A stretch of DNA of 64,000 bases from Verrucomicrobiia bacterium DG1235 (GTDB lineage: Bacteria; Verrucomicrobiota; Verrucomicrobiia; Opitutales; Opitutaceae), in assembly GCA_000155695.1 (NCBI GenBank), contig DS990592.1, positions 3,596,335 to 3,660,334 of the forward strand. Reading direction: 5' to 3'. The position numbers were made by a program, and so were the translations under genes. The notes beneath the pieces are model-generated. The model had not been told where the DNA came from and did no database searches. It was given only the letters and a program-made list of their open reading frames with translations. Of the stretch, positions 55,851-62,059 are shown piece by piece; within the stretch, counting starts at the first letter, position 1, and each line of letters starts with the position of its first letter.

Positions 55851-56057
55851 ACAATAAGAGAAGGGTTCAAGACGTGTAGCGCCTCACCAAATTAGAATCC
55901 AAAACCTCGGACACAAACGGGGATATCCAAGCTAGCCCAAGCCTCGGTGAACTCCCGTATTTTGCAAGGCTAGGCTTAAAAAACTATTCCATCAAACAGA
56001 GCGACAAAGGAATACCGCGACTGTACAAACCGAGCCCATTGTGTTTAAAAAATCTCC

Positions 56058-57410
56058 GTGCCCAAGCTTCTCCCCTTCGCCCTAGCAGCCATTTCCCTCC
56101 TGCTCGCCTCCTGCTCCCGTATCCAGAAAGACCGCACCGAAGACGGCCGCACCATCGTCACCCTCTGGACTAGCTGGGCCGGCACCGAACGCGCCGGTAT
56201 CGATTCCGTCATCGCCGACTACAACGCATCCCAAGACCGGATCTTCGTCCGCTCCCTCAATATCACCGACCCCCAGACCAAAATCATGCTGGCCACCGCC
56301 GGAGGGAATCCCCCCGACATCGCCATCATGAACAACCAGTTCATCGCCCCCTACGTCGAAAACAACGCCCTCACCCCCCTCGACGGACTCTGCGCCGACG
56401 CCGGCATCACCCCTGACCAATTCGTCAAAACCTTCTGGGAAACCGCCACCTACCGCGACCGCGTCTGGGCCCTCCCCCTCACCTGCTCCGTCACCACCCT
56501 CCACTACAACAAGAAAATCTTCCGCGAGCTCGGCCTCGAAGGCCCGCCCAAAACCCTCGAAGAGCTCGAGCGTATCAACGATCTCATTACCGAAAAACGC
56601 CCCGACGGCTCCATCGAACGCATCGGGCACCTCCCCCTAGAACCCGGCTGGTGGCGACCCGAATGGTCCAACTGGTTCGGCCTCGGCTCCACCGACGGAG
56701 CCGACCAAATGCTCTACCAAGCCTCCGGCTGGCTCCAAGCCGCCAACTGGCTCGCCTCCTACCACCAACGCTTCGGCAAAGACCAGCTCATCAAACTCCG
56801 CTCCGGCTTCGGACGCTTCACCTCTCCCCAAAACCCATTCTTCACCGGAAAAGTTGCTATGGTCCTGCAAGGCATCTGGATGAACCGCTTCATCGAAACC
56901 TTCGCGCCAGAAGATTTTGAATACGGCGTCGCCCCCTTCCCCGCCTCCAAAAACGCCGACATCCCCTACTTCGCCATCGCCGACGCCGACCTCGCCGTCA
57001 TCCCCAAAGGAGCCGACCACCTCGAAGAAGCCTTCGCCTTCATCCAATACCTCTCCTCCCGCGAAGGCCTAGAAACCCTCGCCCTCGCCCACGGCAAGAT
57101 GACCTCCCTCAAAGACGTGTCCCCAGAATTCTACGACAGCCATCCCCACCCCTACCTCCAAGTCCACCTAGACATCGCCAACTCCGGCTACGCCAAAGCC
57201 CGACCCCAGCTCGCCCAATACCAAAACTACTTCACCGACACCAACGAAGCCGTAAACTCCATCCTCTACGGCCTCGTCACCCCCGAAGAAGGCCTCGCCC
57301 AAATCCAATCCCGCCAACAAAAAGCCCTCGACAAAAAACAGCTCCGCTGGTCCCGCGTCGCCGACTCCTACCAAACCCTCTGGCAACAACAAATCGACAC
57401 CAACCACTAG
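56058..57410 (+). CDS. Sugar ABC transporter substrate-binding lipoprotein
   Basis: A 450-residue family 1 extracellular solute-binding protein. GTG start at 56058 gives a lipoprotein signal with lipobox 'LLASC' (Cys19). It has the typical opening 'TIVTLWTSWAGTERAGIDSV', 'GGNPPDIAIMNNQFIAPYVE', 'LPLTCSVTTLHYNKKIF' and 'FFTGKVAMVLQGIWMNRFIE'. It binds a sugar or oligosaccharide in the periplasm and delivers it to the permeases encoded downstream. A polysaccharide lyase gene in the same unit suggests the ligand is a uronate-containing oligosaccharide. Start of the operon. Confidence 0.93.
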   Translation: MPKLLPFALAAISLLLASCSRIQKDRTEDGRTIVTLWTSWAGTERAGIDSVIADYNASQDRIFVRSLNITDPQTKIMLATAGGNPPDIAIMNNQFIAPYVENNALTPLDGLCADAGITPDQFVKTFWETATYRDRVWALPLTCSVTTLHYNKKIFRELGLEGPPKTLEELERINDLITEKRPDGSIERIGHLPLEPGWWRPEWSNWFGLGSTDGADQMLYQASGWLQAANWLASYHQRFGKDQLIKLRSGFGRFTSPQNPFFTGKVAMVLQGIWMNRFIETFAPEDFEYGVAPFPASKNADIPYFAIADADLAVIPKGADHLEEAFAFIQYLSSREGLETLALAHGKMTSLKDVSPEFYDSHPHPYLQVHLDIANSGYAKARPQLAQYQNYFTDTNEAVNSILYGLVTPEEGLAQIQSRQQKALDKKQLRWSRVADSYQTLWQQQIDTNH

Positions 57411-57432
57411 CCCAACAACTCCAACAAAGGGT

Positions 57433-57492
57433 CATCAGCCCCGTCCCAACACACCCAAAAATATCCGCGTCTATCTGCGTCCATCTGCGGTT
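57433..57492 (+). repeat. Intergenic element: shared 18-mer plus three 10-nt units
   Basis: CATCAGCCCCGTCCCAAC (57433-57450) differs from the 48887 copy at one base of 18. Three decamers ATCCGCGTCT, ATCTGCGTCC and ATCTGCGGTT (57463-57492) follow in exact tandem. It ends 58 bases before the permease start. Confidence 0.8.
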
Positions 57493-57550
57493 AAAAAACC
57501 CCACCCCCTCTCACTTTCATACCTCATCATTCATAACTCATCCTTTCAAA

Positions 57551-58480
57551 GTGACCCGTACCGACAAACTCAATACAACCAAAGGCCTGCTCTTCATCAG
57601 TCCCTGGATCCTCGGGTTCCTCGCCTTCGCCCTCTATCCGCTCGTCGCCACCGTCTACTTCTCCTTCATGGACTACTCGGTGCTCGCCCCGCCCGTCGCC
57701 ATCGGCGCCGAAAACTACGCTGAGCTCGCCACCGACACCAACTTCATGAAGGCCGTCTTCAACACCGTCTTCTTCGCCGCCATCTCCGTCCCCCTCAACA
57801 CCGCCCTCGCCTGCTTCCTCGCCATCCTGCTCAACTTCAACATCCTCGGCAAAAGCTTCTTCCGCACCGCCTTCTTCCTCCCCTCCCTCGTCCCCATGGT
57901 CTGCCTCGGCGTCATCTGGCGCTGGCTGCTCAACGGAGAAGTCGGCCTCATCAACCAAACCATCGGCCCCTTCGCCGACTTCGCCAACGCCATCCTCGGC
58001 ACCACCTTCGACACCCCCGCCTGGCTCGAAGACCCAGCCTTCACCAAGCTCGGCCTCGTCGTCGCCAGCGTCTGGGGCCTCGGCCACGCCATGGTCATCT
58101 TCCTCGCCGGCCTCCAAGAAGCCCCCGTCGAGCTCTACGAAGCCGCCGAACTCGACGGAGCCGGCTTCTGGTCCAAGCTCCGCCACGTCACCATCCCCAT
58201 GGTCTCGCCCTACATCCTCTTCAACATGATCATGGGCTTCATCGCCGCCTTCCAAGTCTTCGCCGTCCCCTTCGTCATGATGGACGGCGTCAACGAGCCC
58301 CCCGGCGGCCCCGGCGGCTCCATGCTCTTCGCCGCCACTTATATTTACCTCAAAGCCTTCCAAGACTGGGAAATGGGCTACGCCTGCGCCATGGCCCTCA
58401 TCTTCTTCCTCCTCGTCGTCACCCTCACCATCACCCTCATGAAAATCTCCGAACGCCGCGTCCACTACGCCGGCAAATAA
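57551..58480 (+). CDS. Sugar ABC transporter permease, UgpA/MalF type
   Basis: A 309-residue inner-membrane permease starting at GTG 57551. It has six predicted helices and the CUT1 permease EAA loop 'LYEAAELDGAGFWSKLRHVT' followed by 'IPMVSPYILFNMIMG'. 'GLLFISPWILGFLAFALYPL' is the conserved N-terminal helix of this family. It works with the downstream second permease and an ATPase that is not encoded here. The gap before it holds the 10-nt element, and the gap after it contains the GxxExxY cassette. Confidence 0.93.
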   Translation: MTRTDKLNTTKGLLFISPWILGFLAFALYPLVATVYFSFMDYSVLAPPVAIGAENYAELATDTNFMKAVFNTVFFAAISVPLNTALACFLAILLNFNILGKSFFRTAFFLPSLVPMVCLGVIWRWLLNGEVGLINQTIGPFADFANAILGTTFDTPAWLEDPAFTKLGLVVASVWGLGHAMVIFLAGLQEAPVELYEAAELDGAGFWSKLRHVTIPMVSPYILFNMIMGFIAAFQVFAVPFVMMDGVNEPPGGPGGSMLFAATYIYLKAFQDWEMGYACAMALIFFLLVVTLTITLMKISERRVHYAGK

Positions 58481-58493
58481 CGTATCCTATTTC

Positions 58494-58557
58494 TAACCAC
58501 AAAATTCACAAAACCCAACCCGATCACTTTTGTGCCCTTTGTGCTTTCTGTCGTTAA
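58494..58557 (+). repeat. GxxExxY-flanking repeat A
   Basis: A 64-base repeat starting TAACCACAAAA and ending TGTCGTTAA. It shares the block CAACCCGATCACTTTTGTG (58516-58534) with repeat B and can fold using CACAAAA with TTTTGTG. It ends 25 bases before the GxxExxY start codon. Confidence 0.75.
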
Positions 58558-58582
58558 TTCAACCCACAATCCAACTCCCAAC

Positions 58583-58954
58583 ATGAATCCACAAATCCAA
58601 TCCCTCACCGACACGATCCGCGAGACCTCATTCGCCCTCCACACCTACCTCCGCAATGGACTCCTAGAAAAAGTCTACGAAAGCGGCCTTGCCAACCGAC
58701 TCCGCAAACAAGGCCTCTCCGTCATCCAACAACACCCCATCAACGTCTACGACGAAGACGGCAGCATACTCGGAGAATATTACGCTGATCTTTTCGTCGA
58801 AAACGAAATCATCGTAGAACTAAAAGCAGTCAAAACACTCGCCGACGAACATACCGCCCAAGTACTCGCCTACCTTCGAGCAACCAACACTCAACACGGC
58901 ATCCTCATCAACTTCGGCTCCCCAAAACCCCAAATCAAAAAATACGTCCTCTAA
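58583..58954 (+). CDS. GxxExxY protein (PDDEXK-like)
   Basis: A 123-residue protein starting at ATG 58583; an in-frame start at 58532 lies inside repeat A and is rejected. It carries the family signature 'GLLEKVY' (Gly26, Glu29, Tyr32). A nuclease-like motif 'YADLFVENEIIVELKAVKTL' gives Asp69, Glu79 and Lys81 (D-x9-E-x-K). The ending 'HTAQVLAYLRATNTQHGILI' plus 'NFGS' is characteristic. The family is common in Verrucomicrobiota and Planctomycetota and is grouped with PDDEXK_3; its function is unknown. It interrupts a sugar ABC operon, and its stop codon is the first base of repeat B. Both flanking repeats suggest the gene and repeats arrived together. Confidence 0.9.
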   Translation: MNPQIQSLTDTIRETSFALHTYLRNGLLEKVYESGLANRLRKQGLSVIQQHPINVYDEDGSILGEYYADLFVENEIIVELKAVKTLADEHTAQVLAYLRATNTQHGILINFGSPKPQIKKYVL

Positions 58955-59016
58955 CCACAAAACCCAACTCAAGCACAACCCGATCACTTTTGTGACTCTT
59001 GTGCCTTTTGTGGTTA
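58952..59016 (+). repeat. GxxExxY-flanking repeat B
   Basis: A 65-base repeat that begins at the GxxExxY stop codon. TAACCACAAAA (58952-58962) and TTTTGTGGTTA (59006-59016) form a perfect 11-base inverted pair. CAACCCGATCACTTTTGTG (58976-58994) is shared with repeat A. It ends 31 bases before the permease start. Confidence 0.8.
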
Positions 59017-59047
59017 AAAACTAAATACCCATTTCACTCCCCTCACA

Positions 59048-59890
59048 GTGCCCACCCACCAACTCAGTCTCCTCGGCAAGATCGTCCTCTACACCCTGCT
59101 GGCTCTCTTCGCCATCCAGTTCGCCGCCCCCTTCGCCTGGATGGTCTCCACCGCCTTCAAGCCGCTCAACGAGACCATGGCCCTCCCCCCCGTCTGGATC
59201 CCCTCCGAGTGGAAATGGGAGAACTTCACCGAAGCCATCGACTCCATGGGCTTCTTCTGGCGCTACGCCGGCAACACCCTCTTCGTCGCCCTCATGTCCG
59301 TCTTCGGCTCAGTGCTCTCCAGCGCCCTCGCCGCCTACGGCTTCTCCCGCATCGACTGGCCGCACCGCGACAAAGTCTTCTACCTCTGCATCGCCACCAT
59401 GATGATCCCCTTCCCCGTCATCATGGTCCCCACCTACACCCTCTTCCGCGAACTCGACTGGATCGGCACCTTCAAGACCCTCTACGTCCCCTTCTTCCTC
59501 GGCAACGCCTTCAATATCTTCCTGCTCCGCCAATTCTTCCTCGGTATCCCAAAATCCATTACAGAGGCCGCCCGCATCGACGGCTGCTCCGAACTCCGCA
59601 TCTTCTGGCAAATCATCCTACCGCTCAGCAAGTCCGCCCTGCTCGTCATCGCCCTCTTCACCTTCATGCACAGCTGGAACGACTTCTTCGCCCCCTTCAT
59701 CTTCATCAACGACCAAGAAAACTACACCCTCGCCCTCGGCCTCCAAGCCTTCCAGTCACGCCAAGGCGGCACCGAGTGGCACTACCTCATGGCCGCCAGC
59801 ACCCTCATCATTCTCCCCCTCATCGTCCTCTTCTTCTTCACCCAAAAAACCTTCATCCAAGGCATCACCGCCACCGGCGCCAAAGGCTAA
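59048..59890 (+). CDS. Sugar ABC transporter permease, UgpE/MalG type
   Basis: A 280-residue second permease starting at GTG 59048. It shows the CUT1 MalG-type opening ('LLALFAIQFAAPFAWMVSTA', 'FKPLNETMALPP') and the EAA loop 'TEAARIDGCSELRIFWQIIL', followed by 'PLSKSALLVIALFTFMHSWN'. It has about six helices. It pairs with the permease at 57551; the two genes are separated by the GxxExxY cassette, although such pairs are normally adjacent or overlapping. The required ATPase is probably encoded elsewhere as a shared MsmX/UgpC-type protein. Confidence 0.93.
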   Translation: MPTHQLSLLGKIVLYTLLALFAIQFAAPFAWMVSTAFKPLNETMALPPVWIPSEWKWENFTEAIDSMGFFWRYAGNTLFVALMSVFGSVLSSALAAYGFSRIDWPHRDKVFYLCIATMMIPFPVIMVPTYTLFRELDWIGTFKTLYVPFFLGNAFNIFLLRQFFLGIPKSITEAARIDGCSELRIFWQIILPLSKSALLVIALFTFMHSWNDFFAPFIFINDQENYTLALGLQAFQSRQGGTEWHYLMAASTLIILPLIVLFFFTQKTFIQGITATGAKG

Positions 59891-59918
59891 CCGGGAGCAA
59901 ACGCGACCGCACAACCGA

Positions 59919-59947
59919 ATCTGAGTTCATCTGAGTAATCTGTGGGC
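59919..59947 (+). repeat. Intergenic 10-nt tandem repeat
   Basis: Units ATCTGAGTTC, ATCTGAGTA and ATCTGTGGGC lie between the second permease and the polysaccharide lyase gene. They follow the same ATCTGNGT scheme as the 57463-57492 units. The run ends 42 bases before the next start codon. Confidence 0.7.
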
Positions 59948-59989
59948 AAATAAGCACAGCCCACATTCCACTTACCGCTCCCAATCCCA

Positions 59990-61909
59990 ATGTCTCCCTT
60001 CCCTACTACTCTCCTCCTTCTAAGCCTCGCCACCCTCCTCCAGGCCCAAGAAACCACACCAACCTCATGGCGCTCCACCCTCTACCCCGAAAACTGGCAG
60101 CCACCCCACAAAACAACCAACACCACACCCCGCGACTTCGCCACCGACACTTTCCTGCAAGACTACTCCTACGCCGGCTACCACATGGGCGAACGCCCTC
60201 TCCCGCAGCCCGACAGCGCCATCTTCAACGCCGTCACCGACTTCGCCGCCGACCCCTCCGGCACCCTCGATTCCACCTCCGCCATCCAAGCAGCCATCGA
60301 CGCCGCCAGCCAAAACGGCGGAGGCATCGTCTTCCTCCCGACTGGCACCTACCGCCTCTCCCTTCCTGCCGACGCCGACACCTGCCTCCACATCGACGCC
60401 TCAAACATCGTCCTCCGCGGAGCAGGCGCCGACCGTACCTATCTTTTCAATACGAGCACCGAAATGCGAAACGCGGAAATCATCCGCATCCGCCCGCCCG
60501 ACTGGGGCAGCTGGACCACCGAATCCTCCACCCCCATCCTCCTCGCCTCCGATGCCCTCGGTCCCACTACCACCCTTCAGCTCAACTCCACCACCGGCCT
60601 CGCCATCGGCGATTGGATCGTCGTCCACAACCCCGCCACCAACGCTTTCGTCGAAGACCTGAAAATGGGCGCCGGCTCCGACGGCGTATCCTGGCTCGAT
60701 CAAGCCGACTCCGTACGCGGTCCGCGCATTCTTCGCCAACTCACCGCCGTCGATTCCCAAACCAATACCATCACCATCGATATCCCCACCCGCTGGTTCC
60801 TCAAAATCCGCGACGGCGCTCGCGTCTACAAAACCGCCTCCCACCTCGCCGAAGTCGGCCTCGAACACTTCTCCATCGGCAACGCCCGCGTACCCGGCTC
60901 CACCTGGGGCGAATCCGACTACACAGACTCCGCGAATTCCGCCTACCACGCCCACGACTCCTTCGCCATCGAAATGCGAGGCGTCGTCAACGGATGGATA
61001 CAAAACATCTCCTCCTACAATCCCGGCAACGACAACGACGTCCACCTCCTCTCAAACGGCGTCAAACTCGAGTGGTCCCGCAATATCACCCTCTACCGCC
61101 TCAACCTCCAATACGCCCAGTACGGAGGAGGAGGAGGAAACGGCTACATGATCCGCCTCAACTCCGCCAACGAATGCCTCATCGCCGATTCCAAAGTCGG
61201 AAACTGCCGCCACGGTATCGTCATGTGGCGCATGGAAAATTCCGGCAACGTCGTCACCCGCTGCTACGACCACGACTCCGGTATCCAAATCGCCGACACA
61301 GAACCACAACTCACCGCCGGACGCGGCAGCGATCATCACGGCGTCTTCTCCCACTCCAACCTCTTCGACAACAACCGCATCGAACGCTCCTACCTCGAAG
61401 CAGCCTACCGCGGCGACTGGGGCGGCAACCCCGACCACGGCACCACCTCCAGCCAAACCCTCTTCTGGAATAACGAAGGCTCCGCCTACCACCCAAACGC
61501 CAACTACATCATCCACTCCGAACAATTCGGTCACGGCTACATCATCGGCACCCGTGGCCAAGCCCCCGACATCCGCCTCGACGAAAAACGCCCCGACTCC
61601 GCCACCCGCACCACTCCCATTGACTTCACCGAAGGCATCGGCCAAGGCGACACCCTGTATCCAAAATCCATCTACCAAGACCAACTCACTCGCCGTCTCG
61701 GCATCGATGCCCTCAGCCCAACACTCCAAGCCGATCAAACAGATGACTCTCTCACCTTAAATTGGCAAGCCACCCCAAGCCTTCCTTGGAAACTAGAGCA
61801 TTCCTCTAACCTTCAGATCTGGCAGCCGCTCGACATCCCAGCCAACGACACCCAATCACAACCCCACTCGGACTCCCCCAGCTTCTACCGTCTCAACTCC
61901 TCAGACTAG
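59990..61909 (+). CDS. Secreted right-handed beta-helix protein, pectate lyase superfamily
   Basis: A 639-residue exported protein with signal peptide (residues 1-19). The domain begins 'NAVTDFAADPSGTLDSTSAI' with 'QAAIDAASQNGGGIVFLPTG', the Pectate_lyase_3 signature. The middle has parallel-helix rungs ('GWIQNISSYNPGNDNDVHLL', 'NRIERSYLEAAYRGDWGGNP'). It ends with the verrucomicrobial module 'LEHSSNLQIWQPLDI' to 'SFYRLNSSD'. The fold suits a lyase or hydrolase acting on uronate-rich polysaccharide; the catalytic residues were not assigned. Placement directly behind the sugar permease genes suggests that it feeds the transporter. Confidence 0.85.
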   Translation: MSPFPTTLLLLSLATLLQAQETTPTSWRSTLYPENWQPPHKTTNTTPRDFATDTFLQDYSYAGYHMGERPLPQPDSAIFNAVTDFAADPSGTLDSTSAIQAAIDAASQNGGGIVFLPTGTYRLSLPADADTCLHIDASNIVLRGAGADRTYLFNTSTEMRNAEIIRIRPPDWGSWTTESSTPILLASDALGPTTTLQLNSTTGLAIGDWIVVHNPATNAFVEDLKMGAGSDGVSWLDQADSVRGPRILRQLTAVDSQTNTITIDIPTRWFLKIRDGARVYKTASHLAEVGLEHFSIGNARVPGSTWGESDYTDSANSAYHAHDSFAIEMRGVVNGWIQNISSYNPGNDNDVHLLSNGVKLEWSRNITLYRLNLQYAQYGGGGGNGYMIRLNSANECLIADSKVGNCRHGIVMWRMENSGNVVTRCYDHDSGIQIADTEPQLTAGRGSDHHGVFSHSNLFDNNRIERSYLEAAYRGDWGGNPDHGTTSSQTLFWNNEGSAYHPNANYIIHSEQFGHGYIIGTRGQAPDIRLDEKRPDSATRTTPIDFTEGIGQGDTLYPKSIYQDQLTRRLGIDALSPTLQADQTDDSLTLNWQATPSLPWKLEHSSNLQIWQPLDIPANDTQSQPHSDSPSFYRLNSSD

Positions 61910-62059
61910 GGCCCGCAGTCTGACCTCCTTGAGCCTTCGCGAACATCAAACTCTCCTTATCGCCGAGTTCCAAGTTCGGCAGCCATAGGCTCACTAGGAA
62001 GCTTGCCATTGCCAAGCTGATCCGCGAGCGTGCGGCGAATAAGTCTGGCTCGTCTCCCT

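Follow-up and report, generated by a model that had tools for sequence, protein, structure and literature searches.

The stretch of DNA analysed here (the window; 64,000 nucleotides of contig DS990592.1 of Verrucomicrobiia bacterium DG1235) carries, between two genes encoding permeases of the sugar-type ABC kind, a 523-base block made of a first repeat (A), a gene of the GxxExxY family and a second repeat (B). This organization, proposed in the initial annotation of the region, was confirmed by direct reading, together with its details: TAACCACAAAA opens repeat A as well as repeat B; a 19-base block, CAACCCGATCACTTTTGTG, is common to both; repeat B ends in a perfect 11-base inverted pair (58952-58962 / 59006-59016); and the stop codon of the GxxExxY gene (TAA, 58952-58954) is the TAA of repeat B. 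Each repeat is an inverted pair of smaller units, the arms, and repeat A is less regular than repeat B (Table 1).

Table 1. Position and nature of the features of the cassette and of its surroundings in the window.
Feature	Position	Strand	Evidence
Solo arm of another class (word CGCAGAT), intergenic gap before permease 1	57463..57489	-	Same word as the L006 cassette of the DG1235 genome
ABC permease 1, host gene flanking the cassette	57551..58480	+	Profile matches
Repeat A, inverted pair of class-A arms (word CACAAAA/CACAGAA), 5' of the gene	58494..58557	.	Sequence and arm pattern
Right arm of repeat A (words on the - strand)	58528..58556	-	2 mismatches to the arm pattern
GxxExxY / PDDEXK_3 gene, 123 aa, ATG at 58583, stop inside repeat B	58583..58954	+	TIGR04256 and PF13366 profiles
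Repeat B, inverted pair of class-A arms, 3' of the gene	58952..59016	.	Perfect 11-base inverted ends
Right arm of repeat B (words on the - strand)	58988..59016	-	0 mismatches to the arm pattern
ABC permease 2, host gene flanking the cassette	59048..59890	+	Profile matches
Solo arm (words CACAGAT/CTCAGAT), intergenic gap after permease 2	59919..59944	-	Absent in the congener G006

An arm is built from a 7-base word, in most cases C-R-C-N-R-A-N, which is repeated about three times at a spacing of 8-11 bases, i.e., about one helix turn. The word differs from one element to another. It often begins with TTAACC or GCC followed by the words, and its reverse complement stands on the other side of the gene. 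The arm pattern TTTTGTGNNNNTTGTGNNTTTTGTGGTTA, searched with at most three mismatches, was found twice in the window (none in 100 shuffles) and 22 times in the whole DG1235 genome (none in the reversed control). The motif CACAACCCGATC, which is part of the 19-base block common to repeats A and B, has 13 exact places in the DG1235 genome versus one in the control. It lies at 58974-58985, at 58514-58525 (with one mismatch) and at 12 other exact places of this genome, several of which adjoin arms. Within the window, its two occurrences (one of them mismatched) do not exceed chance, and it may be a companion motif of the arms. The Rfam search of positions 56000-62000 returned no match.

The window protein is a full member of both TIGR04256 (125.6 bits, for a curated cut-off of 35) and PF13366 (PDDEXK_3; 115.7 versus 22 bits), two families whose descriptions state no repeats, target or role. 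It carries the GxxExxY motif (G26, E29 and Y32) and the D..E.K residues (D69, E79 and K81) that the initial annotation had singled out, and which turned out to be near-invariant across the family. Among 231 distinct family proteins (leaving out those with stops or shorter than 100 aa), conservation approaches 100% at E29, D69, K81 and N110; E is found at position 79 in 94% and D in 6%; and Q93 (95%) and Y97 (97%) form a QxxxY motif, which we take to be of the RecB type. The structure was predicted with a pLDDT of 95.3, and its best Foldseek matches were MGME1, AdnAB, SSO0001 (Cas4), LHK-Exo and lambda exonuclease, only two matches having an E value of at most 0.001, with TM scores (query) of about 0.44-0.65. 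The nearest folds are mostly those of DNA nucleases, RNA splicing endonucleases standing lower in the list, and Cas4 profiles match the protein weakly.

The protein thus resembles Cas4, RecB, lambda exonuclease and MGME1 in its predicted fold, its D-ExK active site and its QxxxY motif, and on this model it is a PD-(D/E)XK protein of the RecB/Cas4/lambda-exonuclease type. The conserved residues argue for an active nuclease. The window protein differs from these known nucleases in being a stand-alone protein of 120 residues. Cas4 has four iron-sulphur cysteines, whereas the sequence of the window protein contains no cysteine, and no helicase or CRISPR gene occurs among the direct neighbours of its gene. 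The PHROGs search with four proteins and the PDB sequence search gave no match.

The DG1235 genome possesses seven GxxExxY genes, one of which (L007) has an in-frame stop. Class-A arms flank two of them, the window gene (L005) and L004. L006 (CGCAGAT), L003 (CGCGAAA) and L007 (CACGAAT) have arms that are built alike but carry other words, while L001 has a degenerate arm on one side only and the flanks of L002 contain no arm of the word-array type. Away from the genes, many class-A arms are solo, and inverted arm pairs without a gene occur at two sites (L011/L019 and L013/L021). Arms occur as inverted pairs around a gene, as inverted pairs without a gene, or alone and, where looked at, they lie largely in gaps between genes.

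The linkage between gene and arms was scored as the inverted match between the 250 bases upstream and the 250 bases downstream of a gene, values of at least 36 being taken as positive. In genomes of the same order, a positive score was obtained for 56 of 77 usable GxxExxY genes (78 found at 76 loci; the better-scoring among the matches listed), but for just 10 of the 770 mismatched pairs and 4 of 74 further ORFs from these loci. A second set, the best 80 of 564 relatives from many phyla, was selected with VH/GPGLLES-type patterns and therefore favours one clade. Of its 75 usable genes (83 found), 42 were positive, versus 43 of 750 mismatched pairs, which score higher in this set because the arms of different phyla look alike, and 6 of 134 other ORFs. 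Going by the titles of their records, the positive genes include some from Verrucomicrobia, Acidobacteria, Chloroflexi, Planctomycetes, Bacteroidetes, Cyanobacteria and Proteobacteria, as well as in a Parachlamydiales record, Omnitrophota and methanogenic archaea (L182 and L202). Direct, instead of inverted, flank matches of at least 36 were found for 12 of the 77 listed same-order genes and for 14 of the 75 genes from the best 80 of 564 relatives. In DG1235 itself, L004 and L006 alone reach 36; L003, L005 and L007 score 29-35, the window gene having a value of 29 because its repeat A is irregular. The view of the initial annotation that gene and repeats belong together is therefore borne out by the two sets. 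With one relative (L035) as the query (E 1e-5), 8 of 72,556 plasmid records and none of 50,697 phage records were matched, indicating that close relatives of the L035 protein are rare on such vectors. In the L295 region (G063:C73:118563-120203), a GxxExxY gene stands within arm arrays with a period of about 112 bases.

The presence of the gene also co-varies with the number of arms. In a first set of 95 relatives, genomes with the gene (67) have a median of 16 arms and those without it (28) a median of 0; within the same family only, the medians are 20 (53 genomes) and 1.5 (8 genomes). The second set comprised 100 genomes around a Rhodocyclaceae record and was searched with a related but different arm pattern; here the medians are 44 (20 genomes with the gene) and 0 (80 without), and at least 10 arms occur in 17 of the former and 8 of the latter. 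Genomes with no arms despite the gene are few (4/67 and 2/20 in the first and second sets), unlike those lacking both (21/28 and 55/80), and arms were seen in 70 of the 95 and 43 of the 100 genomes. Apart from a division by family or by handle rank, these comparisons take no account of phylogeny. Each cassette adds at most two arms to a count, but 18 of the 20 second-set genomes with the gene have more than two arms per gene. In this second set, 22 genomes match the family at E 0.001, 20 of them over the cut-off, the other two being counted as without the gene, and the genome G134 (42 arm matches), in which the gene is altered, was counted as having it. The altered G134 copy (L330, G134:C3:82457-82716) stands beside an arm and has its parts in more than one frame, with an unmatched middle.

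As to the relationship between the word and the protein, words were taken from 155 of 213 usable cassettes (at least three word copies with an agreement of at least 0.85; 43 cassettes gave none). The nearest protein in another genome goes with the same exact word in 74 of the 155 cases (permutation mean 13.4, maximum 30 in 2000). When words were shuffled within multi-cassette genomes only, 41 of 71 cases agreed (mean 15.2, maximum 28). With neighbours held below 70% identity, the same word was found in 46 of 155 cases (permutation mean 13.4, maximum 28). The signal is weaker below 60% identity (27/155, a count reached by 4 of 2000 permutations), and the cross-phylum test alone is weak (22 of 63 exact, reached by 21 of 2000).

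The last base of the word varies with residue 21 (numbered as in the window protein), in the first helix. All 23 proteins with Asn at this position go with a word ending in T, while Arg or Lys goes with G in 91 cases, A in 18, T in one (Lys) and C in one (Arg). At one orthologous site, which we presume from the N-terminus to lie upstream of alaS, Asn accompanies CACGAAT in G000 (L007, with its in-frame stop) and G006, and Lys accompanies CACGAAG in G001, G004 and G007. Both the word-protein match and this apparent residue-21 code are correlations among sequences, from which clade effects are only partly removed. The dispersed arms fit the words residing in their own genome better than those of others (exact matches 0.36, as compared with 0.13 when permuted, p 0.005; the test used 119 of the 148 arms listed for eight genomes, excluding overlapping matches and cassette-side arms, retaining one arm close to a G080 gene, and with resident words from up to 30 loci), the own word set being best or tied in five of the eight genomes. 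The suggestion of the initial annotation that the product may recognise the repeats is thus supported: the co-variation of word and protein makes it very probable that each protein recognises the repeat that belongs to it.

The orthologous operons, which the initial annotation had proposed to compare for an empty site, show that, of the eight genomes of the genus (a total that counts DG1235), six are without the gene in the gap between permease 1 and permease 2. The cassette is present in G000 (DG1235) and G002; G001 has an inverted pair of CACTAAG/CACGAAG words; G003 has a short stretch with CACGAAG-type words; G004, G005 and G007 have hairpins of other sequence; and nothing clear occurs in G006. 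In two genomes outside the genus, a mere 5 bases separate the permease genes (G015) or the two genes overlap (G019). The gap that precedes permease 1 and the one that follows permease 2 each hold a solo arm in DG1235, and G006 has neither of these arms. Gap occupancy therefore differs between relatives. The hairpins in the permease gap of G007, G004 and G005 (L061, L062 and L066) are of the CTTCTTCTGCTTC and TTCACTCTTAACTCTTCACTT types, so that more repeat families, without a known gene, use such sites.

Other cassettes occupy orthologous positions in two to five genomes of the genus. Around the 16 gene-less arm pairs of G134, no target-site duplication was detected (longest common flank string 4.06, versus 3.93 in mismatched pairs), and for 13 of the 16 the enclosed DNA resembles no other interior of the set; in G039, a subset of the copies does share the interior and the outer flanks. 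The mobile cassette envisaged in the initial annotation is accordingly retained in part. The repeats are indeed also dispersed without the gene, in DG1235 and in other genomes, but a simple hopping cassette does not agree with the orthologous cassettes or with the G134 pairs. It looks as if the arms, rather than the whole cassette, spread.

From these lines of evidence, we propose that the block is probably a member of a very widespread repeat-dispersal system, formed by a GxxExxY protein (a predicted nuclease) and its cognate word arm. We infer with considerable confidence that each protein binds the word of its own arms in duplex DNA; somewhat better than evenly balanced is the further step, that the predicted nuclease activity drives the copying or the upkeep of the arms. 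In such a pathway, the GxxExxY nuclease would make a break at or near an arm, and the repair of this break with another arm as the template would copy the arm DNA. The spreading unit would be a single arm or an arm pair, and the gene would be kept for long between two arms. In the window, a class-A cassette sits in the gap between the permease genes of the ABC operon, and solo arms carrying other words lie in the two neighbouring gaps.

The best reading is that of a system analogous to REP/RAYT operating with a different enzyme, its binding, cutting and spreading being deduced from sequences. RAYT genes are low-copy genes placed between repeats; their enzyme and repeat classes are matched and the gene is kept at fixed loci. 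Similarly, the GxxExxY gene is flanked by inverted dispersed repeats, its enzyme and repeat classes are matched, and it is kept at fixed loci. The two systems differ in that the GxxExxY protein has a predicted PD-(D/E)XK fold of the RecB/Cas4 type whereas RAYT is an HUH tyrosine transposase, in that the GxxExxY arm is made of tandem 7-base words whereas REP is one palindrome, and in that the GxxExxY system here spans many phyla and archaea. It therefore works like REP/RAYT without being a member of it, because the enzyme is unrelated. REP and REPIN elements of the REP/RAYT (TnpAREP) system are likewise short repeats scattered between genes, either single or as inverted pairs (see PMC3116915, PMC8266576, PMC2817692).

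Among the other explanations, the one that survives best, unlikely as it is, holds that GxxExxY is a homing-type parasite that lands on pre-existing host repeats, the arms having their own host function or mover. The PD-(D/E)XK fold of homing endonucleases and TnsA is linked to mobile DNA, and GxxExxY has the same broad fold (predicted). Moreover, the gene has an inverted arm pair around it or one on either side, and the dispersed arms outnumber the cassettes. However, arms are mostly absent where the gene is missing, and their word follows the protein, a behaviour not expected of independent host repeats. As known systems, TnsA and the homing endonucleases differ from GxxExxY: TnsA acts with a partner, a transposase that has end sites of its own, and we know of no homing enzymes with dispersed word arrays.

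Less probable still, the arms could be self-regulation sites bound by GxxExxY, the dispersed arms being a regulon or decoys. The word-protein match and the helical-turn spacing would suit a DNA-binding site, and the G134 arm pairs are at most 50 bases from the upstream ORF in 9 of 16 cases and from the downstream ORF in 9 of 16 (mechanical ORF calls, some of which overlap arms). Yet the gene has arms on either side, inverted relative to each other; D69, E/D79 and K81, which a regulator does not need, are kept near 100%; and the orthologous gaps of the genus hold different arms or none, unlike a stable regulon.

A shade weaker is the possibility that the arms act as hairpins in RNA, terminating transcription or stabilising mRNA, GxxExxY being an RNase or a passenger. 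Arms are inverted, they lie between the genes of an operon, REP hairpins are known in maltose-type operons, and the spacers are partly complementary. We rejected this reading on the absence of a wobble bias: at the unequal word positions of 76 arm pairs, G-U (29) is in no excess over A-C (30), which argues for duplex DNA and against RNA. Furthermore, the variable positions of the word are kept better between arms than the spacers (0.89 versus 0.58; 0.46 and 0.35 when shuffled), many arms are solo, and the nearest folds are mostly those of DNA nucleases. As the spacers are more alike than when shuffled (0.58 versus 0.35), the arms may nevertheless have a structural hairpin role.

Finally, an ordinary insertion sequence or MITE, in which an unseen transposase would move the arms with GxxExxY as cargo, is scarcely credible and was rejected, since G134 shows no target duplication and mostly unrelated interiors and since protein and word co-vary, even though terminal inverted repeats with internal direct repeats look like transposon ends and some G039 copies share interior and flanks.

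Returning to the dispersal of arms by the GxxExxY nuclease, several observations stand against it. First, the 16 arm pairs of G134 show no target-site duplication, and their 13 unlike interiors are not expected of a copied unit without fast decay. Second, there are the orthologous cassettes, the exceptions to the gene-arm covariation, the direct flank matches, the flanks of L001 and L002, the word fit in only five of eight genomes, the likeness of the spacers and the weak cross-phylum word test. In its full form, the proposal is tentative, falling a little short of an even chance: an undescribed class of selfish repeats in bacteria and archaea, in which a PD-(D/E)XK nuclease of 120 residues would read a 7-base word, and would spread or maintain the arms by cutting and host repair, with a readable code from residue to last base. 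The literature searched, which lay outside preprints and subscription journals and was available in part, holds no description of a GxxExxY gene together with repeats.

If cutting drives the spread, this would be, to our knowledge, the first repeat-dispersal system based on a lone PD-(D/E)XK protein. The present findings provide a first testable role for a family that is annotated only by its motif, though found in many phyla, and they tie one type of dispersed intergenic repeat to one gene. They also offer a natural series of small nucleases (predicted) with different 7-base words, so that a recognition code is directly testable.

Regarding the variety of arms and repeats, the classes ACCACGAAA and GCCCACGGAA adjoin or nest in gaps of G026 (L285-L287). 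Besides, a GxxExxY subgroup comprising L002 (G000), L224 (G005) and L248 (G001) has another type of repeat, namely paired short hairpins with changing stems, in which structure rather than sequence may be kept.
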